From: Nitrospira sp.
GTDB lineage: Bacteria > Nitrospirota > Nitrospiria > Nitrospirales > Nitrospiraceae
Assembly: GCA_030653545.1 (NCBI GenBank)
Contig: JAURZE010000038.1
Location: 186,001-250,000, forward strand
DNA: 64,000 nt
Reading direction: 5' to 3'
The notes under the pieces were generated by a model, which ran no database searches, had not been told where the DNA came from, and worked only from the letters and a program-made list of their open reading frames with translations. Of this stretch, positions 36,499 to 50,478 are shown one piece after another. The translations under genes and the position numbers were made by a program. Position 1 is the first letter of the stretch; each line of letters opens with the position of its first letter.

Positions 36499-37755
36499 TC
36501 ACCGATGGAAGAGGTGTCGAATCGAAGCCGGAGGAGAGAGCCAGCGTGAGAGCGTGTGGACAGGGCTGACGCCGCGAGCGAGCCAGTGCAACGACCGGCG
36601 CCAGCGGAACCACGCCGGCGCCGCATGAATCACGGGATCGTGACTCCGACACAAGGCAATCCCGTAGCGCCACCGCGCCTTCCAATCCTCCTGAAGTGTA
36701 AACAACAGCGCCCCGACGTCCTGATCCTCAATCCCCTCTTGCTGCTGTAGGAGGAGGCTCTTCGGCATGCGGTGGGCCAAACCCATGACATCGGAATCGG
36801 CCGCAATCATGTTCAGAATCTGCGGAGGAATAGGCGCATCCATGAGTCGATAAGACAACGCCAGACCGAGCAACAGGACCCGATAACATCTCCATTCCAG
36901 AGCGGTCGTGAGCACCCGCTTCCAATTCAGCCGTCCGGCACGGATGAGTCCGGCTACTTCCGTCACCAGACTAAGTTGTCCCCAAGCCTGATGCGCTCCA
37001 TGCACGCAGAGTACGAGCAACGCTTCCTCCGGAGCCATTCCTTTAGTCTTCCGGCCGTCCAGCGAAACCGGCCTAACGCGGCCCCACACCTCCGGCCGAT
37101 CAATAGGGAACTTCTGATGTGCATGTCTCACCGCCCACAGCAGTTCGATCTGACGCGACGTATTGCCGTGAAGGTAGACGAGCGGCCGCTCGCACGCACC
37201 GGCATCGACTGTGCGGTCACCCGCCCCTCCTCGCACAGCATAGCCCTGCGAGACCAACACTTGTTCTGCATTCGCAAGCTGGTCCCGACGCACAAGCGCA
37301 ACCGGATCGGCGGGAGCACAGAGCGTGAGATCGCCGTAGATCATGGCGGCGAAACCTACGCCCCTGAAAGGAAGCACGGAGACTCCGGCCTCATCAAAAG
37401 CGCGGAACAGTCGAAGCAGTTCCCCCGCTCCGGCTTGATTCGCGGCTGCCGCCTCTTCCGTCCTCCGAATAAGGGCATCCAGATCCGCCGGAGGAATACG
37501 GTCGGCACACAGTTCGGTCAGCGTCCGGGAGAGCAGAGACTCGACCCCATGGCTCTTGGCCAACTCCATCAACAAGGGCCAATTCAAACCGGCTTGCGCC
37601 ACCTCACGAATCCGGCGGCGGAGAGATTCAGGCACAGCGGCTCTGGCGCACCAGATGAGGAATTGGGCCTCCCGAAAGCGCACCGGGTTCACCCATCCAG
37701 CAGCCCCAACAGAGGGTGCCTTCCCATCGACCGGATGTCGGAGCGAGAATCCCAC
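36499..37755 (-). CDS. degenerate nucleotidyltransferase-family protein (PF14907-like), peptide locus
   Basis: 418 aa, GTG start at 37755 with AGGAGG about 8 nt upstream, 2 bp behind the hydroxylase gene. It is a paralogue of the protein at 47031-48254: both have the Y-G-D-L-T-L segment, followed there by S-D-L-D-L-L but here by A-D-P-V-A-L. The K-G before it is R-G, and no D-x-D remains, so nucleotidyl transfer is unlikely. These proteins accompany PqqD and HprK-related kinases in known clusters. It may now act as a scaffold. Confidence 0.75.
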   Translation of the reverse strand: MGFSLRHPVDGKAPSVGAAGWVNPVRFREAQFLIWCARAAVPESLRRRIREVAQAGLNWPLLMELAKSHGVESLLSRTLTELCADRIPPADLDALIRRTEEAAAANQAGAGELLRLFRAFDEAGVSVLPFRGVGFAAMIYGDLTLCAPADPVALVRRDQLANAEQVLVSQGYAVRGGAGDRTVDAGACERPLVYLHGNTSRQIELLWAVRHAHQKFPIDRPEVWGRVRPVSLDGRKTKGMAPEEALLVLCVHGAHQAWGQLSLVTEVAGLIRAGRLNWKRVLTTALEWRCYRVLLLGLALSYRLMDAPIPPQILNMIAADSDVMGLAHRMPKSLLLQQQEGIEDQDVGALLFTLQEDWKARWRYGIALCRSHDPVIHAAPAWFRWRRSLHWLARGVSPVHTLSRWLSPPASIRHLFHR

Positions 37756-37757
37756 CG

Positions 37758-38792
37758 CTACGCCCTCCTCTCGAGCGAGCGCGTCACGCCGCGAAACGCG
37801 TTCACAAAGGGAATCCCGTAAAGCTTGGAGATAGTGGCAAACTGCCCGGAGTCTGCCCCTGGAATTCCGACGCGCAATACCTCCGGCTTGCCTGGGGCAT
37901 ACAGCGTGCCGAATAGCGCATCCCAGAGAGTGAACTTCACCCCAAAGTTCTTATTCCAGTGCCGAGGGTCAATGCTGTGATGGAGTTGATGATGCGCCGG
38001 ACTCATCACCACCCGGTTCAACCAAGGCCCATAGGACATCCAGATATGGGAGTGCCGAAGATGAGTCCCCAGTAAGCCATAGAGAAATCCAAAAATACTC
38101 ACGCCAAAGATCATCATGAACTGCCGGTCCCGACCAAGCACATTCTGAAATACCAGGGCCGATAGTCCGGCCACCGGCGCCTGAAGCACCACCGTGATCA
38201 GATTCTCAACCGGATGCACCCGAAATGCGGCCGCCGGTGTCAGCACCTCGGCGGAATGATGCACCTGGTGAAATGACCAGAGGACGGGATTGCTGTGGAG
38301 CCACACATGCGCCCAGTAATTGATCAGATCGGACAAGAGCAGAAACCCCATCGTCGCGGCGGCGATCGCCGCCGGGGACAATGACCCGGGAGGCTCCCAG
38401 CCCAATCGCTGGATGACCACCGCCGAGAGAATCTTGGCAGTCAGAAGACCGACCCCGGAAAAGACCGGGATCCAAATGAGAAAATTCAGCACAGTATCGA
38501 CGGCCATGAAACGTAGATCCAGCAACGTGGACGGATGGCGATAGATGTGCGCCGGAAACGCATACTCGCGAAACGACTTGGCGCTCGTTCCTCCCTGCCG
38601 CATGGCGACATGATAGAGCCCCCACGCCAGTACCAGGCTGGAGAGCAGATAGGGCCAGGCCAGCCCGTTCGTAAAGTTAACGAACACCAGCGGAATCCGC
38701 TCAATGGCCTCTTGAAAGCTGGACCAGGAGCGGAATGACGCAAACACCGTCTCCCACACCCGTTCGAAGAACCAGCTGATCCGTTCAATCAT
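37758..38792 (-). CDS. fatty-acid hydroxylase / sterol desaturase-family membrane enzyme 1
   Basis: 344 aa integral membrane protein with the di-iron histidine clusters of the family: H-V-W-L-H, then F-H-Q-V-H-H-S, H-S-H and a final H-H-Q-L-H-H-S. Several hydrophobic helices frame these boxes. The family inserts oxygen or double bonds in lipids and related substrates. It stands 181 bp behind precursor gene 1 and 2 bp before the nucleotidyltransferase-like gene. Its paralogue is at 39471-40547. Confidence 0.88.
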   Translation of the reverse strand: MIERISWFFERVWETVFASFRSWSSFQEAIERIPLVFVNFTNGLAWPYLLSSLVLAWGLYHVAMRQGGTSAKSFREYAFPAHIYRHPSTLLDLRFMAVDTVLNFLIWIPVFSGVGLLTAKILSAVVIQRLGWEPPGSLSPAAIAAATMGFLLLSDLINYWAHVWLHSNPVLWSFHQVHHSAEVLTPAAAFRVHPVENLITVVLQAPVAGLSALVFQNVLGRDRQFMMIFGVSIFGFLYGLLGTHLRHSHIWMSYGPWLNRVVMSPAHHQLHHSIDPRHWNKNFGVKFTLWDALFGTLYAPGKPEVLRVGIPGADSGQFATISKLYGIPFVNAFRGVTRSLERRA

Positions 38793-38897
38793 GGCGACGA
38801 CCTATCCCACAAACGATCATCAGGCACAGTCTCTTCTCTTCCCACGAGGCACTCTGAGGGGCAGCGGCTTGGGCATCACCGCCCGTTCAGGAACACC

Positions 38898-38935
38898 GCT
38901 AGACTGGTTGGCGGTTTTTCACCAACCAGTCTAGC
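38898..38935 (-). terminator. stem-loop behind precursor gene 1
   Basis: Perfect 14-bp inverted repeat GCTAGACTGGTTGG / CCAACCAGTCTAGC with a 10-nt loop, about 40 nt after the stop at 38974. No U-run follows, so it may stabilise or process the mRNA more than end it. Confidence 0.7.
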
Positions 38936-38973
38936 CAGCGCACTCCTCGCACCTCCGTCACCAGAGGCATCGA

Positions 38974-39102
38974 TTAGCTGACGCAGACGGCGTCCACCGC
39001 CTTCTGACACTGCTCCTTGTACTTCTGGCCCGTTACATCGCGCAGCAATTCATGCGCGACCAACACGGGCTCTGAGTAGGATTCCTTCTTCTGCTGCTCC
39101 AT
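38974..39102 (-). CDS. precursor peptide 1 of the peptide-modification locus
   Basis: 42 aa. The leader starts M-E-Q-Q-K-K-E-S-Y-S-E-P-V-L-V and continues A-H-E-L-L-R-D-V-T-G; the variable part is QKYKEQCQKAVDAVCVS with two Cys. A strong site AAAGGGGGTGAAG precedes the ATG. Precursors 2 and 3 have nearly the same leader. The Tyr-x-x-Pro and the late Thr are the features that PqqD-like recognition elements and B2 proteases read in lasso leaders. Too short for normal ORF calling. Confidence 0.88.
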   Translation of the reverse strand: MEQQKKESYSEPVLVAHELLRDVTGQKYKEQCQKAVDAVCVS

Positions 39103-39241
39103 TGTTCTTCACCCCCTTTCGTTCCGCAAAGTCCCCCGTGCCTCTGCGGCTCACGGGAGCGGCGACCCTCTATCTGCCTTCAGCCTGCGTCGTCCTCTCG
39201 CTCCACTAACCCGCCTCAACGGAAGCGCGCTGCGTTCAAGT

Positions 39242-39279
39242 CATGAGCTGGCCCGTCCTCTCGAACTGGCCAGCTCATG
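39242..39279 (-). terminator. stem-loop behind precursor gene 2
   Basis: Perfect 12-bp inverted repeat CATGAGCTGGCC / GGCCAGCTCATG with a 14-nt loop, about 30 nt behind the stop at 39310. No U-run. Confidence 0.7.
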
Positions 39280-39309
39280 TTTGCGAACAGCGATCCGAGC
39301 AACCCCAAC

Positions 39310-39447
39310 TTAGAACAAGACGCCGTCGCTCTCCTTGCCAGCCTTGTCGCTGACCTTTTCCTTGTACTTCTGACCCGTTACATCGCGCAGCAATTCATGC
39401 GCGACCAACACGGGTTCCGAGTACGATTCCTTCTTCTGTTGCTCCAT
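39310..39447 (-). CDS. precursor peptide 2 of the peptide-modification locus
   Basis: 45 aa. Its first 29 residues equal those of precursor 1 (same leader through Q-K-Y-K-E), then the tail diverges to K-V-S-D-K-A-G-K-E-S-D-G-V-L-F, without Cys. The 5' region also matches: GGGACTTT, then GAAAGGGGGTGAAGAA, then ATG. It lies 23 nt before the hydroxylase-2 stop side, directly downstream of that gene on the same strand. Confidence 0.88.
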   Translation of the reverse strand: MEQQKKESYSEPVLVAHELLRDVTGQKYKEKVSDKAGKESDGVLF

Positions 39448-39470
39448 TCTTCTTCACCCCCTTTCCATCA

Positions 39471-40547
39471 TTAAAGTCCCTCAGAACGCACGGCATCCTG
39501 AGAGCGAGTGAGCGGATCGGAGGCGAGGCTGCGCCGGATTCGCCCTCCGGCACGTTGAAACGGCCCGACATACAGCTTCCCGACTGTCGCAAAATCGTCC
39601 TTTTTTATGCCGACAAGCCCGAATCGAAGGCGTTCGTGGCGATCCGGCAGGCACAGAGTGCCAAACAACCAATCCCACAACGCAAACTTCACCCCGAAAT
39701 TCTTGTTGTGATGCCGCGGATCGAGGCTGTGATGCGTTTGGTGCACGATCGGAGTCACCAGAATGCGATCCAGCAGGGGACCGTAGGAAATCGGAAGATG
39801 CGAGTGCTGCAGATGAAGCCCTGAGAGTCCATACATAAACCCCACGAGGCTGACCCCGAACATCGTCGTGACGGCTAAGTCCTGCGCAGGAAAGTTCTCA
39901 TAAAAGACAAAAGCCAAGCCGATCACCGGCGCGCGCAGGATCGCCGTCACGAAAAATTCCAATGGATGCGCACGGTACGCTGAAATGGGCGTCAACACCT
40001 CAGCCGAATGATGGACCTGGTGAAAGGCCCACAACAGTGGGACTTTGTGGAGCAGCAGATGAGCCCAATAATTCACGAAATCGTGCAGCAGGTAAAACCC
40101 CAGCGCCGCGGCGAAGAGGGCGGGCACCGGCAAGGTGGCCGGAGGTTCCCACGCCAAGTATCCGATCAAAAACCCCTTCCCCATCTTCTCTGCGAGGACC
40201 CCGACGCCGGCCAACATGGGAACAAAGAGCAACACATTGAGCAGAGCGCTCACGAGATAGAAACGATAGTCCAGCAGCGCAGAGGGGTGACCGTACACAC
40301 CGCGAGGAAACAGAAACGCCCTGAAGGAGGGGGCGGGCGGCACGTCGCGCTTCTTGGACACATGGTACGCCACCCCGGCAATCGTCACACTGGCCAGCAC
40401 ATAGGGCCAGGCCAGGCCGCTCGTGAGCCTGGTGAAGGTCCCGAGGACCTCTCCGATCGCTGCCGTGAAACTGTCCCAGGATGAAACGGCAGACAGGGAA
40501 TACTCTGCCACGCGCTCCAGAAACCATCGTACTGCGTCAATCACCAT
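39471..40547 (-). CDS. fatty-acid hydroxylase / sterol desaturase-family membrane enzyme 2
   Basis: About 358 aa. Di-iron ligands are complete: W-A-H-L-L-L-H, F-H-Q-V-H-H-S-A-E, H-S-H and V-H-Q-T-H-H-S. It is clearly paralogous to 37758-38792, with shared motifs such as H-H-S-A-E-V-L-T-P and R-H-x-N-K-N-F-G-V-K-F. It is flanked by precursors 3 (upstream) and 2 (downstream). The enzyme could modify a peptide, its lipid carrier or a lipid partner. Confidence 0.88.
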   Translation of the reverse strand: MVIDAVRWFLERVAEYSLSAVSSWDSFTAAIGEVLGTFTRLTSGLAWPYVLASVTIAGVAYHVSKKRDVPPAPSFRAFLFPRGVYGHPSALLDYRFYLVSALLNVLLFVPMLAGVGVLAEKMGKGFLIGYLAWEPPATLPVPALFAAALGFYLLHDFVNYWAHLLLHKVPLLWAFHQVHHSAEVLTPISAYRAHPLEFFVTAILRAPVIGLAFVFYENFPAQDLAVTTMFGVSLVGFMYGLSGLHLQHSHLPISYGPLLDRILVTPIVHQTHHSLDPRHHNKNFGVKFALWDWLFGTLCLPDRHERLRFGLVGIKKDDFATVGKLYVGPFQRAGGRIRRSLASDPLTRSQDAVRSEGL

Positions 40548-40602
40548 CACCCTCTATCAGTTCTTGCACCACGTGAACGACGGAACCTGCCTTGTAATAT
40601 CG

Positions 40603-40634
40603 GTGGGTTGGCCGACCGAAGCCGGCCAACCCAC
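40603..40634 (-). terminator. stem-loop behind precursor gene 3
   Basis: Perfect 12-bp inverted repeat GTGGGTTGGCCG / CGGCCAACCCAC with an 8-nt loop, 8 nt after the stop at 40643. The downstream hydroxylase is still transcribed from the same strand, so it is probably not a full terminator. Confidence 0.75.
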
Positions 40635-40642
40635 ACTCGCGG

Positions 40643-40774
40643 CTACGCAGGCGATTCGTTGCCGACTTTCTCCCGCGCGTTCTTCACGGCGGACGCTCCA
40701 CCCGTCACATCGCGCAGCAATTCATGCGCGACCAACACGGGCTCTGCGTACGATTCCTTCTTCTGTTGTTCCAT
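40643..40774 (-). CDS. precursor peptide 3 of the peptide-modification locus
   Basis: 43 aa. The leader is the same as in precursors 1-2 with one change (Y-A-E-P). The variable part is GASAVKNAREKVGNESPA and has no Cys. GGGACTTT and GAAAGGGGGTGAAGAA precede the ATG, as for precursors 1-2. It sits between the HprK-like kinase gene (upstream) and hydroxylase 2. Confidence 0.88.
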   Translation of the reverse strand: MEQQKKESYAEPVLVAHELLRDVTGGASAVKNAREKVGNESPA

Positions 40775-40896
40775 TGTTCTTCACCCCCTTTCGCTTGTTA
40801 AAGTCCCTCATGACCAGGTGCGTCACGAGAGCGTATTCACGGTTTTCTTGCGCAGCACAATTCCCATCCTTACCGCTAAGCCCCCGCGCAGGCCGA

Positions 40897-41931
40897 CTAC
40901 GCCGCGGATCGGGCTTCAAGCAGCGGACGGATCAACGTGGGCAGATCGAGGATGTCCCGGCCGAAGTGGAGCCGATAGCAATCGACCTGCTGGACGAGTT
41001 TCGATAAGGCCTGAAACTCACGGCGGGCCACCGTCTGATCGTAGACCAGGAGGCCTTGCGGCATCAGGGCTTCTAGCGCGCGGCTCTTGGGCAGCGGTTC
41101 CAGACAGCTATGCGGCATATCGACGACGTGCGGGAACATGATCATGGCCGGCGTGCAGGAGCGGCCGATGGACTCGGCATAGAGGTCTTCAGACTGAAAG
41201 TGCTTCTTCTGAACCCCTTGTTTCAACAGGCCTGGTGGCGCATTGCGTAACTCAGGGAAAAACTCGATCGTCCGATCCGTCACATCGATCTTCATGGGAA
41301 AGGCCAGCAGTTCCATCTGCGTGCCCCGATCGCGCAGCAAGGGATAGTCGTCCGACAGGTACCGGAACCCCGAACGCAGGAGCGAGAGAAACGACGTGGT
41401 TTTCCCCTGGCCGCTATAGCCGGGAATCAAGATGCCTTGCCCCTCATACTCGAGCGCCGTCGCATGCACGGTATAGAGGCCGTTGCGCTTCAGCAGCTCA
41501 GCGAGCGCGAAATGGAGAAAGCTCGTCCGCACATCGGGATGCAGCGCATCGGGCTGAATGAAGTAGCCCTCCACCAGATTCCGGACGCCGTCGATCACCA
41601 GCACTCCCTGTTCATGAAAGTCGGCAATGAGCCGGTTCCCGTCCTGCACGATCTCGCATTGCCACAGCGGACGCACCGCATCCCCCAAGGAAGGCCGCTC
41701 CCCTGCAAACAACACCTTCGAGCCTGCTGACATCGTCACCGGCACCTCCGCTCGACTGGCAACTTCGTCAAACTGGATCGTCAGCACCGGCGCTCCCTGC
41801 GCCACGTCCGTCTGGAAATGCCGGAGGAAGGTAAGTGTCGGCTCGACAAATGCGGGAACGGACGTCCGAAACCGGAGATCGAGGCCATGACAATTGAAGA
41901 GATATTCGCCTGTCGTGATCGTTGCGCTCAT
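40897..41931 (-). CDS. HprK-related kinase 2 (peptide locus)
   Basis: About 344 aa from the ATG at 41931 (GAGGG 6 nt upstream; ATGs up to 41982 also open the frame). It has the HPr kinase-type P-loop G-Y-S-G-Q-G-K-T-T, preceded by H-A-T-A-L-E-Y-E-G, and a conserved L-S-D-D-Y-P-L-L that coordinates metal. HprK-related kinases in peptide clusters phosphorylate precursor peptides or an accessory substrate instead of HPr. It is a paralogue of 48251-49270, with the same C-terminal C-Y-R-L-H-F-G-R-D-I-L-D-L-P. Confidence 0.88.
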   Translation of the reverse strand: MSATITTGEYLFNCHGLDLRFRTSVPAFVEPTLTFLRHFQTDVAQGAPVLTIQFDEVASRAEVPVTMSAGSKVLFAGERPSLGDAVRPLWQCEIVQDGNRLIADFHEQGVLVIDGVRNLVEGYFIQPDALHPDVRTSFLHFALAELLKRNGLYTVHATALEYEGQGILIPGYSGQGKTTSFLSLLRSGFRYLSDDYPLLRDRGTQMELLAFPMKIDVTDRTIEFFPELRNAPPGLLKQGVQKKHFQSEDLYAESIGRSCTPAMIMFPHVVDMPHSCLEPLPKSRALEALMPQGLLVYDQTVARREFQALSKLVQQVDCYRLHFGRDILDLPTLIRPLLEARSAA

Positions 41932-42010
41932 TGCATCCCTCATTAGAGAAGTTGATTTCTTCATCATCCCCGGCCAGCCCATACGACCTGCGCGCCGCTC
42001 CCCTGCGTTC

Positions 42011-42469
42011 TCACACCTCTTCCAGGCTCAGCAGTCCTTCGTGACTCAGATGGGTCACGAGGGCGAATAGATCATCGGCGATCCGCTCCGGCGGAGCGTC
42101 GAACCGCCCGCACAGCGCCACGTGGATCGCCTGAAGGGATAGACTTCCGTTGCAGGCCTCCCAGATCGCACTGCCAACCCGATTCAAGGTGTAATAGCGG
42201 CCGGTCCCCAAGTGGAGCAACACCGTTTCGCCGTCCAGTGTCGTTCCCTGGACATCCTGATTGGGGCGCGGCACCGCCGACAGGAGGTCCTGACGGGTAT
42301 CTTGCCGGCCACGTTCAATCTGCTGCTGTTCTCCTTCCGACAGGACGGCCCGAGCCGCTTCGGCCAGCTGCGCGGTCGTCGCGCTCCCCGCCGGCGAGGC
42401 TTGTCCGGGCTCGGACTCGACGGTCATATCCGGTCTCAAATCGGCGGTGATAAACGGCTGTCGCCCCAT
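42011..42469 (-). CDS. PqqD-like peptide-binding protein 2
   Basis: 152 aa. The last 90 residues are the PqqD/RRE winged-helix fold: V-Q-G-T-T-L-D-G-E-T-V-L-L-H-L then Y-Y-T-L-N-R-V-G-S-A-I-W-E. The first 60 residues are an unusual low-complexity extension rich in Ala/Gln/Ser that the second copy lacks. PqqD domains bind leader peptides and present them to modifying enzymes. The gene is 41 bp behind the ATP-grasp gene. Confidence 0.88.
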   Translation of the reverse strand: MGRQPFITADLRPDMTVESEPGQASPAGSATTAQLAEAARAVLSEGEQQQIERGRQDTRQDLLSAVPRPNQDVQGTTLDGETVLLHLGTGRYYTLNRVGSAIWEACNGSLSLQAIHVALCGRFDAPPERIADDLFALVTHLSHEGLLSLEEV

Positions 42470-42510
42470 GATGACGCTCCCTTCGTTGTGACTCGACGTG
42501 TCCGTACGCC

Positions 42511-43410
42511 TTACGCCCGTCCGGCACAGAGCAAATCGGCCAAGGCATCGCCGATCCGCTGACCCGTATAGTTTTCGAAAAAGGTAAACCCCGGGCTGGT
42601 ATTGACTTCGAAACAGTAGTAGGCACCATCCGGCGTCCGGCGAAGATCGATCCCGCTCAGGCTCAATCCCAGTCCCTTGGCGAGATTGAGACAGCGGGTT
42701 TGAACGCTCGGCTCCAATTCGACCGCTCGCATGGTGCGCTGCTTGTCCTCGCGCTCGGCATACCGGTAATCCGCCCCGTCCGACAGTACCTCCGTCGCGA
42801 ACAATCGGTCTCCGACCGTGTGGACACGTAAGTCTGCGCCGGGAATGGTTTCTTGTAGTTGCACCGGGCAGGTCCGGATCTGTTCCAGGCGAGGAAAATC
42901 GGCCGGCGTGAGCGGCCGCACGATTGATCGCTCCGCGCTGATGGATTTGTAGATGACGCGCCCCTGACAGGCGTCATAGAAGCGGCGCGCTGCCTCCGGC
43001 ACCATCGTCACCAGGGTCTTCGGAACCAGGAAGCCATACTGCTCAATCAATCGCTGCTGATAGGGCTTCGACATGTTCGTATGCCCGGCCTGGCGCCGGT
43101 TGACGACCAGGACCGGAAGGCTTTCGGCGAACTCCCACAGCGTCGTCGCCACCATGCGCTCGCGCGGCGTCGAGGCTGAACGGGCGCCGACTCCGCGGAG
43201 ATACACGGCTTCAATGCTTGCCGCATCAATGACCCGCTGGCCAAGCCGAATGCGTCCCACCACCCGGCCGCCGTCGGTAGACCAGGAGACATCCCAATCC
43301 TGTCCGTCCGACTCCGGATGGACCAGCATGAGGTCAGCGTTCCGGACTGCAAGTCGGGCACACACGTTCGCGAGCACCGGATCGGCCATCGGCCCCATGA
43401 GAAGAATCAT
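42511..43410 (-). CDS. ATP-grasp ligase of the peptide-maturase type
   Basis: 299 aa. The ATP-grasp fold is complete: Y-K-S-I-S-A-E-R-S-I-V supplies the ATP-binding Lys, Q-L-Q-E-T-I-P-G-A-D-L-R-V-H the adenine side, and F-E-V-N-T-S-P-G-F the magnesium Glu and Asn. It resembles RimK-like and graspetide (microviridin-type) ligases that form amide or ester links on peptides. Its N-terminal region has V-Y-L-R-G-V-G. The upstream ATP-grasp gene overlaps it by 77 bp. Confidence 0.88.
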   Translation of the reverse strand: MILLMGPMADPVLANVCARLAVRNADLMLVHPESDGQDWDVSWSTDGGRVVGRIRLGQRVIDAASIEAVYLRGVGARSASTPRERMVATTLWEFAESLPVLVVNRRQAGHTNMSKPYQQRLIEQYGFLVPKTLVTMVPEAARRFYDACQGRVIYKSISAERSIVRPLTPADFPRLEQIRTCPVQLQETIPGADLRVHTVGDRLFATEVLSDGADYRYAEREDKQRTMRAVELEPSVQTRCLNLAKGLGLSLSGIDLRRTPDGAYYCFEVNTSPGFTFFENYTGQRIGDALADLLCAGRA

Positions 43411-44326
43411 GATGCGAAAGACTCCTGAGTTCGGAAAGATGTTTGAGCAGATGTTCTACGATCTGCTGCTGGGCATCCTGCGGACAGCGCCAGAAATTCG
43501 GCGCACTGCTGACATCGAGACACGCGATTCCCCCGTCATGGGTGATCACAATCTGGCACTCGGCGAAGCTGAGCCCCAATGCGCGCACGAGACGAAGGCA
43601 CTGCGCGGCATGAGCCGACCGCACCTCCATCGGCTGCGGCACGGCCTCACTGGGACGAAGCACCGTGGCGACCACTTCTTCTCCAACCACATAGACTGTC
43701 GCCTGTTGCCCCGGTGGAATCGCTTGGAGTGATACCGCCTGCTGCTCCATGACCCGGCGGATCTGCTCGCCCCCATCGTGCGAATGGAGAAACCGCCCCG
43801 GCTCGACCGACCCCAGCGGCTTGAGATAGGCCGACTCGCCCCAGGTCATAAATTGTTGCAGCGCATCGGCCTGGCTTGACGTGCAGCGAGACGCCGGAAG
43901 GATAAATCCATGATCCTGAGCGAGCTGCGCCAGCAATGGGCTCCCCGAAAGGAGCGTGGGCCTCCCGCCGGGCATCGGTCGGTTGACCACGGAACAGGGC
44001 ATGGCATTCAGGAAGGCCAACCAGGCCGCCGTGGCTTCCTTCGTCACATATTGGCCATCAGCGTCCGAGAGCCCTTCAAGATCCAAACGGAGAGGGAAAG
44101 GGAGGAGAGCGAAAATCCCGGTCAAATCATCGAGGGGAATCGTCCGGCCGTCGATCTCCAGGAATCCTGGAACGACCGCCTCTCCGCCCACGACCGGCCA
44201 ATCGAGCAGGATCTTATCCAGAAGTTGCACGGGCTCCACCCAGAAGACATCTCCACCCGTCCGTTGGGCCTCCCGATGGACCAACGTCGCCCAGGGATCG
44301 GTCGAATCGGCAAGAATGAGAATCAC
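43334..44326 (-). CDS. second ATP-grasp-like protein, probably inactive or altered
   Basis: 330 aa, GTG start at 44326 with GAGGAG 9 nt upstream. It shares the fold of the neighbour (Y-L-K-P-L-G-S for the ATP Lys, L-S-F-A-E-C-Q-I-V-I), but the magnesium motif E-V-N is changed to C-L-D-V-S-S-A-P-N-F, so Glu becomes Asp and Asn becomes Ser. Catalysis may be lost or altered. The C-terminal 30 residues, rich in Ser/His/Arg, are coded inside the next gene. Confidence 0.78.
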   Translation of the reverse strand: MILILADSTDPWATLVHREAQRTGGDVFWVEPVQLLDKILLDWPVVGGEAVVPGFLEIDGRTIPLDDLTGIFALLPFPLRLDLEGLSDADGQYVTKEATAAWLAFLNAMPCSVVNRPMPGGRPTLLSGSPLLAQLAQDHGFILPASRCTSSQADALQQFMTWGESAYLKPLGSVEPGRFLHSHDGGEQIRRVMEQQAVSLQAIPPGQQATVYVVGEEVVATVLRPSEAVPQPMEVRSAHAAQCLRLVRALGLSFAECQIVITHDGGIACLDVSSAPNFWRCPQDAQQQIVEHLLKHLSELRSLSHHDSSHGADGRSGARERVCPTCSPER

Positions 44327-44585
44327 TGAGGGTGACTCCTCTCCGGCGCCTAAGATGGTGGAATGGCTGCTTCGGATACAGTAAGGCGCGCCACGTCTTC
44401 GAGAAGAGTAACCCCGGCCTGACGTTCTGCCTAGATCACTAGAAGCGGGGGCCTCCCCCTACGGAGGTCCGTCCGTAGCACTACGTACGCCGGAACATTT
44501 GGCCGGGAGGGTAAACCGCAGGCACGACACAACAAGCCACGCTATTCAAGTCTGCCAAAGGAAAGAAGCGATCAAGGGGGAGAGA
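44327..44585. other. intergenic gap in the peptide locus, no further precursor seen
   Basis: 259 bp between the exporter and the ATP-grasp genes. Neither strand has a short gene with the shared leader. A weak GC-rich inverted repeat lies near 44450-44475. Nothing else stands out. Confidence 0.4.
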
Positions 44586-46397
44586 CTATTGGTAGTGTTG
44601 CGCTTGGGTGAGGAATAACGAGGCATAGAGGCCTTGGCGGCTCATCAAATCATCATGCGTTCCCTGTTCCACGATCTGACCGCGATCCACGACGAAAATC
44701 CGGTCGGCCATTTTCACCGTGGACAACCGATGACTGATTAAAATCGCCGTCCGTCCTTGTGCGAGTTCGTGGAACCGTTCGAACAGCTCCGCCTCCGCCT
44801 TTGCGTCCATGGCACTGGTCGGTTCGTCGAGAATCAGGATCTGGGAATTGCGGAGAATGGCTCTCGCCAGCGCCACCTTCTGCCATTCCCCGATACTCAG
44901 CTCATGCCCCCCGTCGAATAACTTACCCAACAGGGACTCGTAGCCCTTCGGCAAACGCTCGATGGCCTCATGGACCCCGGCCTGCCTGGCCGCCTGCACG
45001 ACCATCGGAAGCGCGACATCCGGCGCGTTCACCCCCAACGTGATGTTGTCTTTGGCGGAAAACTGAAACTTCACAAAGTCCTGAAAAATCCCGCTGACCG
45101 CCCCGCGGACATCGGCGATGGCATAGTCACGCAGGTCCGTCCCGTCGATCGTAATACGACCGCTCGTGGGATCGTAGAGACGACACAACAGCTTCACCAG
45201 CGTGGTCTTCCCTGCGCCGTTGGCTCCGACGAATGCCACATGCTCGCCGGGCTTGATCGTAAAGGTGAAGTCGCGGACGGCCACCCGTTCTTCGTGGGGA
45301 TATTGAAACGAGACCTGCTCGAACGTAATTCCCTGCCCGAGCGAGGCAGGAAACGGTCGAGGCTTGACCGCTTCGGGCAATTTCGAGCGAATCGCCAGGA
45401 ATTCGTTCAGCGTCGTCAGAAAAAGATTGCTCTCATACAAATTCGACACACTCCAGCCCAGCCCTTCGAGAAACCCCGAGGCCCGCTGAATGGCCTGAAA
45501 GAACATGACCAGGTCGCCCACAGTCAGGAGCCCGTGAAACGTTCGCACCGCCACGAAACTGTAGACCCCGAAGACTCCTACGACCCCCACGATCTGCGCA
45601 GCCAACCCGGCAAACGCCCATCGCCGCTCTAGAGCGACCCGCTCCCGACGCAGCACCGTTCGCGCATCGCGGAACCATTCCCGCAACCGGGGGCCCAGGT
45701 CGAACAGACGCACCTCTTTGGCCGCGGTGGCCTGGGTGAGCAGCATGTTGACGTACCAGGCCTTCCGTTCCAGCGGCGTGCGCTCGCGCTCCCAGGCAAA
45801 CAGCCGATTGGACTGTTGCAAGCGGACAAAGAAATACGGAATCGCCGTCAGGGCCAGGACCGGAATGACCGCCCAATGCAACCACCAGAGAATGCCCGCC
45901 ATCGCCAACAGCGAGATGCCATCCTGGAAACATTGCAAGAGCGCGTTGAGAATCGCGGTGGGACGATACGGCGCTTCCTGCTGCGCTCGATGCAGCGTAT
46001 CTTGGTACCGCGCGTTCTCGTAATACTCGAGGTCGACCTCGACGGACTTCGCCTGCAGCAGCGCATGCATATGATCGGTGACGACTTGGGCATGGATCCT
46101 GGAGATCAGGGAGGATACAACTGTGAGCATAGCACTGATCACTGCAGCCCCTGCCAGGCCCGCAAGAATTGTCGTGATGGGGGTCAACGAGGCATCCTGC
46201 GCGGGAGCCTTGAGCCCCTCCGTCACCGCATCGATCAACAGTTTGGTCAGATACAGCACGGCCAAGGGAAGCACCCCCTGGATCACCCGTACGACAATAC
46301 TGCCAACTGCGAGACTCGGACTGCTCTGCCAGACAAACGAGAGGGCATACCGCAGTGTCTGGAGAAAGGGACGTATGCGGAACAACAGGCTATTCAT
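44586..46397 (-). CDS. ABC exporter (fused membrane and ATPase domains)
   Basis: 603 aa half-transporter that works as a dimer. The membrane domain (residues about 1-320, six helices) is followed by an ATPase with Walker A G-A-N-G-A-G-K-T-T, signature L-S-I-G-E-W-Q-K, Walker B I-L-I-L-D-E-P-T and H-loop S-H-R-L-S-T. There is no N-terminal C39 peptidase, which agrees with a separate protease in the cluster (46424-46897). Likely exports the finished peptides. Confidence 0.93.
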   Translation of the reverse strand: MNSLLFRIRPFLQTLRYALSFVWQSSPSLAVGSIVVRVIQGVLPLAVLYLTKLLIDAVTEGLKAPAQDASLTPITTILAGLAGAAVISAMLTVVSSLISRIHAQVVTDHMHALLQAKSVEVDLEYYENARYQDTLHRAQQEAPYRPTAILNALLQCFQDGISLLAMAGILWWLHWAVIPVLALTAIPYFFVRLQQSNRLFAWERERTPLERKAWYVNMLLTQATAAKEVRLFDLGPRLREWFRDARTVLRRERVALERRWAFAGLAAQIVGVVGVFGVYSFVAVRTFHGLLTVGDLVMFFQAIQRASGFLEGLGWSVSNLYESNLFLTTLNEFLAIRSKLPEAVKPRPFPASLGQGITFEQVSFQYPHEERVAVRDFTFTIKPGEHVAFVGANGAGKTTLVKLLCRLYDPTSGRITIDGTDLRDYAIADVRGAVSGIFQDFVKFQFSAKDNITLGVNAPDVALPMVVQAARQAGVHEAIERLPKGYESLLGKLFDGGHELSIGEWQKVALARAILRNSQILILDEPTSAMDAKAEAELFERFHELAQGRTAILISHRLSTVKMADRIFVVDRGQIVEQGTHDDLMSRQGLYASLFLTQAQHYQ

Positions 46398-46423
46398 GGA
46401 AATCGCTTGCGTATGGACTCATA

Positions 46424-46897
46424 TCAGATCGCCGCCGTCGTCCCCTTCCGGGGGCGCACTGGCGGCGCCTGCTCACGGTTGACCGGTTGATCGGGCGGGA
46501 ACGCATAGGTGACGGTGAAACGCTGCCAATGCTGGCCGGGCTCGTGAAACGGCTGACGATCGAGCGTCAGCCAGGCATGGCCATCGAGTCCGGACCCGTC
46601 CTTTCTGACCCCGCAATGAAACGACACCGGATACCCTGATCGTGTGGCGAACCAATACAACGCCAACGACCGGGGAAAGCAATTTCCTTTCGCATTGTAG
46701 GGAAAGAGTTGGAGCCAGCGGTCCACATAGTAGACGAGGTCCTCGAACCGCGACGAATCCGGCGTCCCGGAGAGCGCGCCAGGGGCCAGCCGCTTCAGCA
46801 CAGCCGGAAGGTTCTCGCCGCGCAGTCGGAGACGAATCCGGGACACGATCACCGCCACCTGCAGCAGCATCCAATATTTTCTTACGACTCGCTTCAT
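46424..46897 (-). CDS. lasso-B2-type transglutaminase-fold leader protease
   Basis: About 157 aa from the ATG at 46897; the open frame extends to 46939 and the start is uncertain. The cysteine-protease triad is readable: Cys in G-N-C-F-P-R-S-L-A-L, His in D-G-H-A-W-L-T and Asp in T-L-D-R-Q-P-F. This is the Transglut_core3 / lasso peptide B2 pattern that removes leader peptides with help from a PqqD-like B1 protein. It ends 26 bp before the exporter gene. Confidence 0.85.
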   Translation of the reverse strand: MKRVVRKYWMLLQVAVIVSRIRLRLRGENLPAVLKRLAPGALSGTPDSSRFEDLVYYVDRWLQLFPYNAKGNCFPRSLALYWFATRSGYPVSFHCGVRKDGSGLDGHAWLTLDRQPFHEPGQHWQRFTVTYAFPPDQPVNREQAPPVRPRKGTTAAI

Positions 46898-47030
46898 CGC
46901 GGGCTCACTGGAAGAAATCGCCCGGCACATTCCAGCCATCGCCGCCGCACCGGACCTGCCGGAGAGGTCGCCCAGCCTTCGCCGAACGTGGAAGAGTGAC
47001 GGCCCGACCTGAATCGGCTCGACGACACCA

Positions 47031-48254
47031 TCAGCCTCCGTGCTCCACCCACCGATTGATCGCGCCTCGAATTGAAGAGGGAACCAGATTCCTTACCGCT
47101 CGCTGGCACGGCCGAACGAGATGAGCCAATCGCGCGAGCCCCCCGCCACGGGAAAACCAGCGTGGCGGATTCTCCACTATTGAAGAGCCGTCCCGGCACA
47201 GCACCAGGCCGAATCGACACCGTTCCCACCAGGTATCTTTCAACGTCAAGTAGAACGCCACGGCCTGCTCCTCAGTGACGCCCTCTCGTGGACTCGCCAA
47301 GAGACTAGCCGGCATGCGTTCGGACAACATCCGGACATCGGCATCGGTCGAATAGCGGGCAAGAATAGAGTCCGGGATGGGCGCATCCAGCACACGATGG
47401 GCCAGCGCCAATCCCATGTGCATCAATCGCTGGCAATGCCAGGCCGTTGCATTCGCAAAGATCCGCTCCCAATCAAGGTCCGGGTGTGAACGGAGCACTT
47501 CGGCGACATCGCACACCCACTTGAGCTGCTCCCAGGCATGCTTCGATCCATGCACGCAGAGAAGAATCAGAAGCTCCTCCGGCGCCAATCCTTGCACGGT
47601 CGAATTCCCCAGCCGCACCGGCGACCGATGCGCCCAGAACTCCGGACGATCCAGTTGAAAGGCAAAATGCTGATGCGCCATCACCCACTGAAGATCGACC
47701 CGAAACAGGCTGCGCTTCTTGATAAACACATGATAGGGCCCCTCTTCGTGCTCCGCTTCCGCAGGGTCTGTCGACGGATCTTTCCGTTCATAACCCTGGG
47801 CGATCAACACGGCTTGCGCGGCCCCGATCGCAGATTCGGGAATCAGGAGATCGAGATCGCTGAAATCGCGGAGCGTCAGATCGCCGTAAGCAGACACCGC
47901 TAGCGTCGCGCCTTTGATCGGCACGACCGGCACGCTGCGCGCGGCAAATGCGTCACACAGACCTCCCAGCTCCTGGGCGAGCGATCGATTCAGCATGGCA
48001 CAGGCTTGCGTCTTTTGACGCAGCTTCGTCAACGTATCGGCCGGCACAAGAGCCGGACAGAGGGTCGACAGATTCCGGTGGAGCAACGGAAGCACACCGT
48101 GATAGGCGGCGAGGTCCAGCAGTAGTCCCCAATCAAGAGGCTCCTGGACCCGCGAGCAGATGCGCGCGCGCAGGTCCTCGGTGACGCATGTTCGGGCGCA
48201 CCAGACCAGCAGCTCTCCTTCAGGCGACCAGGGAAACTGTCGCGGTTCCTTCAT
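47031..48254 (-). CDS. nucleotidyltransferase-family protein (PF14907-like), peptide locus
   Basis: 407 aa from the ATG at 48254, which overlaps the kinase stop as ATGA and has GGAGAAGG in front. The nucleotidyltransferase core is intact: P-I-K-G-A-T-L-A, Y-G-D-L-T-L-R-D-F-S-D-L-D-L-L-I. This family often travels with HprK-related kinases and PqqD-like proteins. The C-terminal helical half matches that of the degenerate paralogue at 36499. Substrate unknown; nucleotidylation of a precursor is possible. Confidence 0.87.
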   Translation of the reverse strand: MKEPRQFPWSPEGELLVWCARTCVTEDLRARICSRVQEPLDWGLLLDLAAYHGVLPLLHRNLSTLCPALVPADTLTKLRQKTQACAMLNRSLAQELGGLCDAFAARSVPVVPIKGATLAVSAYGDLTLRDFSDLDLLIPESAIGAAQAVLIAQGYERKDPSTDPAEAEHEEGPYHVFIKKRSLFRVDLQWVMAHQHFAFQLDRPEFWAHRSPVRLGNSTVQGLAPEELLILLCVHGSKHAWEQLKWVCDVAEVLRSHPDLDWERIFANATAWHCQRLMHMGLALAHRVLDAPIPDSILARYSTDADVRMLSERMPASLLASPREGVTEEQAVAFYLTLKDTWWERCRFGLVLCRDGSSIVENPPRWFSRGGGLARLAHLVRPCQRAVRNLVPSSIRGAINRWVEHGG

Positions 48255-49270
48255 CGCCCCTTCTCCAGCAACGGAGTGATCAGGTTCGGCAAGTCCAGAA
48301 TATCGCGACCGAAATGCAGGCGGTAACAATCGACCTGCTGCACGAGTTTGGCCAGCACCTTAAATTCACGCCTGGCGACCTCTTGATCGTACACCAGCAG
48401 GGCTTGCGGCAAGAGCGCTTCCAAGGCCCGGCTCTTGGGAAGCAACTCCAGGTGGCTTTGCGGCGCATCCACCACATGGGGGAAAAGCACCAGGGCCGGC
48501 TGGCAGCGCTCTCCGACCGCCGTAGGATAGAGATCTTCGGCGTAGAAGAATCGCTTGGGCACACCCGGATGGAGTACCTGCTCTGAGGCCGCTCTGAGTT
48601 CCGGAAAAAACTGCACCGTGGCGTCCGTCACATTGATCTTGATCGGAAACGACAACACCTCCACGTGGGTCCCCGAATCCTGGAGGAGCGGATGGTCGTC
48701 AGATAGATAGCGGTAGCCCGAACGGAGCAAGGAGATGAAGGAGGTGGTCTTCCCGCGCCCGCTGTTGCCGGGAATCAAAATGGCTCGGCCGTTGTGTTCC
48801 AAGGCCGTCGCATGAATCGTATAGAGCCCGCGCCGCCGCAGCAGTTCGATCAGCGCCAGGTGAAACAGATATTCAATGAGATTCGCGGGCAGGCGATCGG
48901 GATTGATCAGATACCCCTCGGCCCGGCTCTGCGCGCCGTCGATCACCAGGACCCCGATGCCATGAAACTCCGCGATCAGAAGCCCCTGATCCAGGAGCAC
49001 ATCATAGGGCAATCCGGTGGCTCGCCGATCCCCGACGGCCTCGCCGGTACCGGACGCCAGCTTCCTGGCCGATGCAGAAATCGCGAGAGGGACCGCGGCC
49101 CGATCCTGCACCTGGTGAAAGCGAATAGCTAGATCCGCGTCGGCTTCGAGCGCATCATCCCGACGAAAATGCCGCAACAACTCGCGCACCGGTTGCGCCA
49201 GAATCGGCACATCCGTTTCATATCGGACCGATGTCCCATATAGTGAATACCGAGAGTCAGCCATGCTCAT
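48251..49270 (-). CDS. HprK-related kinase 1 (peptide locus)
   Basis: About 339 aa from the ATG at 49270, with GAGGA about 10 nt upstream. The P-loop is G-N-S-G-R-G-K-T-T and the metal motif L-S-D-D-H-P-L-L. It shares the closing C-Y-R-L-H-F-G-R-D-I-L with the second kinase. In paeninodin-type lasso clusters a related kinase phosphorylates the precursor. Here the gene follows precursors 4-5 and is fused by overlap to the nucleotidyltransferase gene. Confidence 0.88.
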   Translation of the reverse strand: MSMADSRYSLYGTSVRYETDVPILAQPVRELLRHFRRDDALEADADLAIRFHQVQDRAAVPLAISASARKLASGTGEAVGDRRATGLPYDVLLDQGLLIAEFHGIGVLVIDGAQSRAEGYLINPDRLPANLIEYLFHLALIELLRRRGLYTIHATALEHNGRAILIPGNSGRGKTTSFISLLRSGYRYLSDDHPLLQDSGTHVEVLSFPIKINVTDATVQFFPELRAASEQVLHPGVPKRFFYAEDLYPTAVGERCQPALVLFPHVVDAPQSHLELLPKSRALEALLPQALLVYDQEVARREFKVLAKLVQQVDCYRLHFGRDILDLPNLITPLLEKGR

Positions 49271-49334
49271 TTCTACCATGTCCTCAGGATTCAACCGACG
49301 TATTTCGCGCTCTCACCCGTCGCCGCAAGGAGAC

Positions 49335-49365
49335 GGGCCGGCCTGCTCATTCAGCGGGCCGGCCC
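49335..49365 (-). terminator. stem-loop behind precursor gene 4
   Basis: Perfect 9-bp GC arms GGGCCGGCC / GGCCGGCCC with a 13-nt loop, 7 nt after the stop at 49373. No U-run. Confidence 0.7.
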
Positions 49366-49372
49366 CTTCACG

Positions 49373-49504
49373 TTAGTCGTTATTCCACCATCGGCGCTTC
49401 TTATTGTCATCGCAATTGTAGCCTGATTGACCCGCCGTAATATCGCGCAACAGTTCGTGCTTCACAATCACCGGCTGAACGTAGGACTCTTTTTTCTGTT
49501 CCAT
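49373..49504 (-). CDS. precursor peptide 4 of the peptide-modification locus
   Basis: 43 aa. The leader reads M-E-Q-K-K-E-S-Y-V-Q-P-V-I-V-K-H-E-L-L-R then D-I-T-A. If cut two residues after Thr, the core is GQSGYNCDDNKKRRWWNND: Gly at 1 and Asp at 8 and 9, the layout of a lasso macrolactam. The core also has one Cys, four basic residues in a row and W-W. GGAGG lies upstream. Confidence 0.88.
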   Translation of the reverse strand: MEQKKESYVQPVIVKHELLRDITAGQSGYNCDDNKKRRWWNND

Positions 49505-49534
49505 CGCGTTGTGGCCTCCTCAATTTTGAATATA

Positions 49535-49565
49535 GGCTGGCCAATCCCTGTGAACCGGCCAGTCC
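49535..49565 (-). terminator. stem-loop behind precursor gene 5
   Basis: Arms CTGGCC / GGCCAG, extended by a G-T pair, with a 14-nt loop, 9 nt after the stop at 49575. Weaker than the other four. Confidence 0.55.
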
Positions 49566-49574
49566 ACTGCCTAT

Positions 49575-49691
49575 CTACTTATCCTCACACTGCCGACAGA
49601 TCACCTGACCTGACTGGCCCGCCGTGATGTCGCGCAGCAACTCGTGCTTCACGACTGCCGGCTGAACATACTCTCCTTTCTTCTGCTCCAT
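49575..49691 (-). CDS. precursor peptide 5 of the peptide-modification locus
   Basis: 38 aa. The leader is M-E-Q-K-K-G-E-Y-V-Q-P-A-V-V-K-H-E-L-L-R then D-I-T-A, and the core is GQSGQVICRQCEDK, with a C-x-x-C pair and no acid at positions 7-9. An ideal ribosome-binding site AAGGAGGTGA precedes the ATG. It is 7 bp behind the PqqD-like gene and is the first precursor of the locus. Confidence 0.88.
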   Translation of the reverse strand: MEQKKGEYVQPAVVKHELLRDITAGQSGQVICRQCEDK

Positions 49692-49698
49692 TTACTCT

Positions 49699-50040
49699 TC
49701 ACCTCCTTTCTTGTTGAAGTAACCCTTCTTGAATCAATTCATTGACCAACGCCACCAGATCATCGAGGGCTCGCTCTGGCGCCACCTCAAACCGGTCACA
49801 GATGGCCGCATGAATATCGGCCATCGTGCTCTGCCCGGCACAATGCTCCCAAATTACGCTCCCCAATCGATTCAATGTGTAGTAGCGCCCGCTGCTCAGA
49901 TCGAGGAGGACGGTTTCTCCATCCATCGTCGTGCCCTGCACGTCCGGGTTCGGCCGCAGCACGGTGCGGCTCAACTCATTCCGGTCGATCGAAGACCCTG
50001 TCGTAGGCGGCAATATTGTCGTCGATGCTAAGTCGGCCAT
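49699..50040 (-). CDS. PqqD-like peptide-binding protein 1
   Basis: 113 aa from the ATG at 50040 (AAGGAG 7 nt upstream; longer frames start at 50064 or 50157). The PqqD fold covers residues about 30-110: V-Q-G-T-T-M-D-G-E-T-V-L-L-D-L, Y-Y-T-L-N-R-L-G-S-V-I-W-E. It is the paralogue of 42011-42469 but without the low-complexity N-terminal extension. It opens the peptide locus. Confidence 0.87.
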   Translation of the reverse strand: MADLASTTILPPTTGSSIDRNELSRTVLRPNPDVQGTTMDGETVLLDLSSGRYYTLNRLGSVIWEHCAGQSTMADIHAAICDRFEVAPERALDDLVALVNELIQEGLLQQERR

Positions 50041-50478
50041 GGGCACTCCTTCTCGATTTGTCATTGCCGGGTTTTCCCTCTTACGAAAGACCCACCTGAG
50101 GTCAATTGTCCACGCCGCTCCCTCGCAGCCCCGACCACATCGTGTCAGCGTCTTCAAGAAAGGTAGCCTGGCATTGGGTTTCTGCCTATACCTCTAAAGA
50201 CCCGTGGAGACACCCTACCTTGGTAGGTGCCTGGAACAGGCTGGTTGCCGCAGGCATCGGGAGAAGAAATTTCAGGCGTATCAAGGCAGGCGCGCAACGA
50301 CCGCACAGGCTTACCCTGGCTGCTCGCACCCGTCAGACCTGCGAGAGTTAGCCGTAGTGGCTATCAAGAGACACTCCGAATGCCGCCGACAAGAAGAAGA
50401 GCTCAGGAGGTTGTCGAGTGATGGGGACGAGGGGATGGGGGCGGTACCTAGATTCGCTACGTGGGAGTATCGGCTTTC
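50041..50478. other. 438-bp region upstream of the peptide locus, no gene seen
   Basis: Expected to hold the promoter of the locus and the end of the PilZ transcript. I find no open frame with coding character on either strand and no clear -35/-10 pair. A short palindrome CCTACCTTGGTAGG lies near 50214-50227. Confidence 0.45.

Follow-up and report, generated by a model that had tools for sequence, protein, structure and literature searches.

A 64,000-nt window of Nitrospira sp. (GCA_030653545.1, contig JAURZE010000038.1, positions 186,001 to 250,000) carries on its minus strand, at window positions 36499-50157, a gene cluster that probably produces a family of linear ribosomally synthesized and post-translationally modified peptides (RiPPs) that carry a phosphate on core residue 3, which the kinase HprK1 would place on Ser and its paralogue HprK2 apparently on Tyr, some of them being decorated further. 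Five precursor genes encoding peptides of 38-45 aa, called Ser-type or Tyr-type after this acceptor residue, lie amid 12 enzyme and transporter genes with tight intergenic spacing (-79 to 259 nt), in the transcription order PqqD1, precursors 1 and 2, HprK1, NT1, B2, an MsbA-like ABC exporter, GRASP1, GRASP2, PqqD2, HprK2, precursor 3, FAH1, precursors 4 and 5, FAH2 and NT2 (Table 1). Pfam and NCBIfam profile searches bear out the gene list of an earlier sequence-only reading, i.e., two PqqD-like proteins, two HprK-related kinases, two PF14907 nucleotidyltransferases, a B2 protease, an exporter, two ATP-grasp proteins and two hydroxylases, all on one strand. That reading recognised the cluster, although it ended it at 50040 instead of 50157, and its assignment to RiPPs is strongly supported by the presence of RiPP recognition elements (RREs), a B2 protease, an exporter and a peptide family whose short genes are kept in dozens of genomes. 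What escaped it is the two-module make-up of the locus, the invariant Ser/Tyr acceptor, the link between Tyr-type precursors and HprK2, and a likeness to the Linear Polyphosphorylated Peptides (LPPs).

To collect related loci, GRASP2 and HprK1 served as queries against 79 genus genomes. Six of these genomes have the whole locus in synteny between purF/PilZ and a resA-like gene, and a scan of public genomes added more, including the Nitrospira isolates RSF6, RSF11 and REEB81. Every intact cluster includes peptide genes, which vary in number, order and core sequence around a constant leader; the conservation of the short genes in other Nitrospira genomes, which the sequence-only reading had proposed as a check, is thus observed. 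A minimal version, consisting of PqqD1, one to three precursors, HprK1, NT1, B2 and the ABC exporter, occurs alone and elsewhere in the genome in about 30 other Nitrospira genomes, and no ATP-grasp, hydroxylase or cyclase gene was found in these minimal loci. The locus is therefore made up of two modules: module I (PqqD1, Ser-type precursors, HprK1, NT1, B2 and the ABC exporter), a widespread minimal phosphopeptide system, and module II (GRASP1-GRASP2, PqqD2, precursors, HprK2, the FAH proteins and NT2). Module II also stands without module I, namely in L112 and the sister-genus loci L150-L152, together with B2 and a nucleotidyltransferase and in some cases with an ABC exporter. A compact third variant occupies the same purF-resA site in loci L114, L115, L116, L118, L119, L120, L156, L157 and L158; it encodes B2, PqqD, precursors with DVTAI[QA][LYI]SR cores in which the Ser lies one residue later, a kinase of its own clade and a nucleotidyltransferase.

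The five window peptides share the leader Y-x-x-P...H-E-L-L-R-D-[I/V]-T. Across all loci, 80 distinct precursors were gathered using a search pattern constrained as far as the leader Thr and open beyond it; Y..P is present in 80/80, the Y and the P being partly imposed by this pattern. In the free region, the fourth residue past the leader Thr (T+4) is Ser in all 50 module I precursors, while among the 22 of module II it is Tyr in 12 and Ser in 10; the entropy is about 2 bits at T+2 and T+3 and up to 3.7 bits at later core positions. This invariant Ser was spotted in the alignments before the likeness to the papers on LPPs and on the phosphorylated lasso peptides of the Bsf type came up. If B2 follows the rule of lasso systems, with the Thr at -2, T+4 would be core residue 3. 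Tyr-type cores share the motif K-Y-x-E (K at T+3, E at T+6) and are rich in Lys, Asp and Glu, and in one of them (VKYKEQCQKAADAACAD, locus L024) the Tyr is the sole hydroxyl side chain. Pairwise codon differences are mostly synonymous in the leader and mostly nonsynonymous in the core, and a strong Shine-Dalgarno site precedes 107 of the 111 precursor occurrences; these two patterns establish that the five peptides with a common leader, as listed in the earlier reading, are real genes.

HprK1 and HprK2 fall into separate clades of the kinase tree. Both retain the His-Lys-Asp-Asp catalytic motif of the family (PMC9266682), at H161, K182, D199 and D200 in HprK1, as do 45 of 48 kinases overall. 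The exceptions (L124, L153 and L154) are isolated or almost isolated kinase genes lying between purF and resA; their motif is damaged, no precursor is detectable, and they are relics of a lost cluster. Orthologues of HprK1 (66-74%) occur in about 30 Nitrospira genomes, which carry Ser-type precursors only. Tyr-type precursors, in turn, are present in all 11 genomes with HprK2 (the window and L024, L025, L026, L089, L112, L113, L150, L151, L152 and L155), whereas the four module II genomes that lack it (L027, L028, L029 and L087) have none (Fisher's test without correction for ancestry, p = 0.0007). Loci L150-L152 and L155, fetched as a test once this link had been hypothesised, have one precursor each, all Tyr-type, and in their genomes (G212, G248, G217 and G282) HprK2 is the single kinase of this kind. 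By analogy with characterised relatives, HprK1 is most likely the Ser kinase of the precursors, acting at residue 3: the HprK-like kinase BsfK of a Bsf lasso cluster phosphorylates Ser3 with the aid of the RRE BsfB1, B2 performing the cleavage (PMC10368454), and LppK phosphorylates Ser3 of linear LPP precursors (PMC13381572). HprK2 is apparently the corresponding Tyr kinase. Only positions 154, 165 and 227 are fixed in all Tyr-type kinases and unlike HprK1, and two of them are shared with the Ser kinases of class III, hence no clear determinant of acceptor specificity emerges.

Several points weigh against phosphorylation of residue 3 by a Ser- and a Tyr-specific kinase. No case of Tyr phosphorylation by a kinase of this family is known to us, and a search of the available papers on Tyr phosphorylation in RiPPs returned nothing relevant. 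Both BsfK (PMC10368454) and LppK (PMC13381572) fail on S3Y substrates, so that a second kinase dedicated to Tyr would make sense, but the same failures also suit a different reading, in which Ser3 is phosphorylated as proposed and HprK2 acts on another residue or protein, the Tyr-type core being simply another substrate class. Consistent with this, K(T+3) and E(T+6) covary with the Tyr, so that HprK2 is tracked by the whole motif and not by the Tyr alone. We nevertheless hold this reading to be somewhat unlikely, given that the Tyr sits exactly where the invariant Ser does and is the only hydroxyl residue of the L024 core, and that the four genomes without HprK2 keep PqqD2 and the ATP-grasps, yet have Ser-type cores only. 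The link between Tyr-type precursors and HprK2 itself rests on about three separate losses of HprK2, placed on weakly supported branches of the ATP-grasp tree (FastTree), and on lineages of common ancestry. The acceptor register is not absolute either, as class III peptides have their Ser at T+5 and the Tyr of L155 also lies one residue later. One module II core (GASGVSGGQCQSTSALNCVL, locus L028) contains no Asp, Glu or Lys, a misfit with side-chain crosslinking by the ATP-grasps, and the part played by FAH1 and FAH2 is a guess. Lastly, the sequences directly give the gene content, conservation, invariant acceptor, Tyr-HprK2 linkage and intact or lost catalytic motifs; phosphorylation at residue 3, RRE use and B2 cleavage are inferred from characterised relatives, and the Tyr kinase activity and the ATP-grasp and hydroxylase chemistry are proposals.

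The ATP-grasp pair raises the question of a graspetide (omega-ester/omega-amide) pathway, in which GRASP1 and GRASP2 would make the defining macrocycle, with K(T+3) and E(T+6) lactam-linked in Tyr-type cores, and the kinases and hydroxylases would be accessory. In GRASP2 the ExN ligands are intact in 11/11 genomes, and the protein is nearest to graspetide macrocyclases both in NCBIfam and in the PDB, where its best relatives are PsnB (7drm, 4.6e-25), followed by MdnC, PruB, MdnB and CdnC; the Lys/Asp/Glu-rich K-Y-x-E motif common to Tyr-type cores would also fit such a crosslink. However, the roughly 30 minimal systems without any ATP-grasp indicate that a graspetide crosslink was not the founding modification, Tyr-type precursors track HprK2 and not the ATP-grasps, four genomes having retained the latter but no such precursors, and the K/E pair is missing from the Ser-type cores of module II, one of which has no Asp, Glu or Lys at all. 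Further differences from graspetides are the discrete PqqD-type RREs and the loss of ExN in GRASP1, and a possible crosslink pattern is not consistent across the cores, Tyr-type cores having K-Y-x-E and Ser-type cores not. This pathway appears quite unlikely for the locus. In GRASP1 the ExN metal ligands are replaced by LDxS in 11/11 genomes, for which reason it is probably a non-catalytic partner; its orthologues match TIGR04187 in 10/10 cases, and its AF2 model (pLDDT 74, built from 10 sequences only) has MdnC and PsnB as top Foldseek matches (E 1e-12), the TM-score of only 0.33 limiting this to support for membership in the fold family. Distant GRASP1/GRASP2-like pairs also occur in other Nitrospira genomes (L030, L032, L034, L035 and L036), adjoining large proteins and not short peptides, as does GRASP2-like with a neighbouring ORF in L031, L033 and L037; the large neighbours of the pairs measure about 400-900 aa, one being lectin-like and one tyrosinase-like by eye.

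A similar asymmetry is seen in the nucleotidyltransferases, since NT1 keeps its DxD motif, while NT2 has lost it in 6/6 orthologues and is, as judged from this loss, probably a pseudoenzyme. Both pairs named in the earlier reading are thus present, with one member of each (GRASP1 and NT2) probably being no catalyst. In B2, the Cys and His motifs (GNCFPRS and GHAWL) are conserved. Among the FAH proteins, every full-length sequence has intact His boxes; FAH2 of L027 is broken. A search of the available papers for sterol-desaturase/fatty acid hydroxylase enzymes in RiPPs found nothing relevant.

Among known systems, LPPs come closest in gene content and acceptor; they were described in 2026 from the lpp cluster of Paenibacillus alginolyticus and called restricted to Bacillota by their authors; LPP clusters encode an RRE, an NTP transferase and an MsbA-like exporter, with no cyclase, as well as the SpI-like (SipW) peptidase LppS, which cleaves the leader off behind Thr(-1) (PMC13381572). 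The Nitrospira locus resembles them in its discrete RRE, in a YxxP leader with a His equally far from the Tyr, in its precursors, which number from one to several and join a constant leader to a variable core, in a conserved Ser at the predicted core residue 3, and in the combination of an HprK-like kinase, an NTP transferase and an MsbA-like exporter without cyclase, a likeness by family that does not imply orthology to LppN or LppD. In contrast with LPP clusters, its leader peptidase is the transglutaminase-like cysteine protease B2, and none of the locus genes, all of which are assigned otherwise, encodes a signal peptidase; in the absence of an SpI peptidase, the system is described as working like LPPs and not as a member. 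There is also one extra residue between Thr and Ser, which, with B2 cutting one residue past the Thr as in lasso systems, places the acceptor at position 3 in both. Tyr-type precursors, a second kinase, an ATP-grasp pair, hydroxylases and the phylum Nitrospirota further set it apart.

With the Bsf-type phosphorylated lasso clusters, such as that of Bradymonas sediminis (PMC10368454), the locus shares an RRE (B1), B2, a kinase, a nucleotidyltransferase, an exporter, a YxxP...T leader and core Ser3 as kinase target, a predicted one here. The B1, B2, kinase and nucleotidyltransferase set and the leader would suit a lasso pathway relying on a cyclase gene outside the cluster. Such an arrangement is extremely unlikely: no protein exceeds the lasso cyclase cut-off (NF033535) in the 79 genus genomes, no acidic residue that could serve in a ring is conserved at core positions 7-9, and the genuine lasso clusters with kinase of the genus carry their own cyclase. 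The three full-length Asn-synthase proteins of the window's own genome, considered as a cyclase acting in trans, are read as MCGI-type asparagine synthetases, two of their genes adjoining glycosyltransferase-like genes by eye. The locus, which itself has no lasso cyclase, is thus not a lasso system. Lasso-type loci in which a kinase and a nucleotidyltransferase accompany a YxxP...KLTQGxPSGM precursor were seen in the genus (L130, L131, L132, L133 and L137), with a cyclase in L130 and L137 and a PRMT-like methyltransferase in L130; the lasso-cluster kinases are only 24-30% identical. L134 and L135 combine B2, an HprK-like kinase, PqqD, a nucleotidyltransferase and a radical SAM protein (Pfam-checked in L134). 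The link to HPr-rel-A systems suggested earlier is not supported: a kinase and a PqqD-like protein do occur together as in those systems, but the models stay below their cut-offs (TIGR04352, 62 of 200; TIGR04353, 21.8 and 15.7 of 35).

Taken as a phosphopeptide pathway, the locus would operate as follows. PqqD1 or PqqD2 would bind the YxxP...HELLRD[I/V]T leaders, as RREs of characterised relatives do, and core residue 3 would be phosphorylated, Ser by HprK1 and Tyr by HprK2, after which NT1 may act on the phosphate, NT2 looking inactive. GRASP2/GRASP1 would then modify module II peptides, most plausibly by amide or ester formation through Lys, Ser or Thr and Asp or Glu side chains, and FAH1/FAH2 might hydroxylate the peptide or a lipid attached to it. 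B2 would cleave one residue past the leader Thr (Thr at -2), as in its characterised relatives, and the MsbA-like exporter would carry the product out.

A hairpin follows each of the five window precursor genes and is found in most related loci as well. Of 80 precursor stops, 49 are followed by a perfect stem of 8 bp or more, vs 1.4 expected from shuffled sequences; the hairpin lies at a median offset of 17 nt and often has the sequence GGCTGGCCGGTTCGTGAGGATCGGCCAGCC. The only copies of the consensus in the window's own genome are those behind precursors 1 and 4. Sequence variants of the hairpin appear to keep pairing, and it may set precursor over enzyme expression. The locus has no match to known RNA families in Rfam, and promoter and terminator scans gave no more hits than in shuffled sequence.

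As for the gene models, an internal site is probably the true start of PqqD1, and the 79-nt overlap with HprK1 suggests that NT1 starts later than called. PqqD1 is duplicated along with extra precursors in L024, L027, L028 and L087, and a third PqqD-domain protein is encoded on the window's contig (G000:C38:56099-56302).

Table 1. Features of the cluster in transcription order, in window coordinates (slash, predicted leader cleavage site).
Feature	Position	Strand	Assignment and evidence
PqqD1	49699..50157	-	discrete RRE, module I; PF05402 67.7 bits, residues 81-147
Precursor 1 (38 aa)	49575..49691	-	Ser-type: ...HELLRDIT-A/GQSGQVICRQCEDK
Hairpin 3' of precursor 1	49532..49567	-	conserved
Precursor 2 (43 aa)	49373..49504	-	Ser-type: ...DIT-A/GQSGYNCDDNKKRRWWNND
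Hairpin 3' of precursor 2	49335..49365	-	conserved
HprK1	48251..49294	-	predicted precursor Ser3 kinase; TIGR04352 62 bits (cut-off 200)
NT1	47031..48329	-	nucleotidyltransferase, DxD intact; PF14907 214.8 bits
B2	46424..46939	-	transglutaminase-like cysteine leader peptidase; NF033537 43.8 bits (cut-off 33)
ABC exporter, MsbA-like	44586..46397	-	TIGR02203 286 bits; kept in orthologous loci
GRASP1	43334..44326	-	degenerate ATP-grasp partner; TIGR04187 51.7 bits
GRASP2	42511..43410	-	active-looking ATP-grasp peptide ligase, graspetide-macrocyclase family; TIGR04187 124.4 bits, MvdD 89.5 bits
PqqD2	42011..42469	-	RRE of module II; PF05402 63.5 bits
HprK2	40897..41982	-	predicted precursor Tyr3 kinase; TIGR04352 61 bits (cut-off 200)
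Precursor 3 (43 aa)	40643..40774	-	Ser-type: ...DVT-G/GASAVKNAREKVGNESPA
Hairpin 3' of precursor 3	40603..40634	-	conserved
FAH1	39471..40550	-	membrane di-iron hydroxylase, fatty acid hydroxylase superfamily; PF04116 86.8 bits; His boxes intact
Precursor 4 (45 aa)	39310..39447	-	Tyr-type: ...DVT-G/QKYKEKVSDKAGKESDGVLF
Hairpin 3' of precursor 4	39242..39279	-	conserved
Precursor 5 (42 aa)	38974..39102	-	Tyr-type: ...DVT-G/QKYKEQCQKAVDAVCVS
Hairpin 3' of precursor 5	38898..38935	-	conserved
FAH2	37758..38792	-	membrane di-iron hydroxylase; PF04116 88.2 bits; His boxes intact
NT2	36499..37755	-	PF14907 homologue without DxD; PF14907 134.4 bits

We found no description of this enzyme combination, and we tentatively put forward, as a possibility somewhat short of even, a class of linear peptides in Nitrospirota that would bear phosphate or polyphosphate on residue 3 and be built by HprK-family kinases split between Ser and Tyr, a heteromeric ATP-grasp with a pseudoenzyme subunit and di-iron hydroxylases. 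With this locus, the recently described linear phosphopeptide RiPPs would be known from a second phylum and with a second kind of leader peptidase. The locus also represents a natural experiment on acceptor choice, with paralogous kinases beside Ser- and Tyr-type precursors that have near-identical leaders, in a family whose characterised kinases reject Tyr; if HprK2 is indeed a Tyr kinase, it would be a compact, genetically encoded peptide tyrosine kinase. Finally, the action of an ATP-grasp pair on phosphopeptides would become tractable with this cluster, and that in nitrite-oxidising bacteria, a group in which secreted peptides have hardly been studied.

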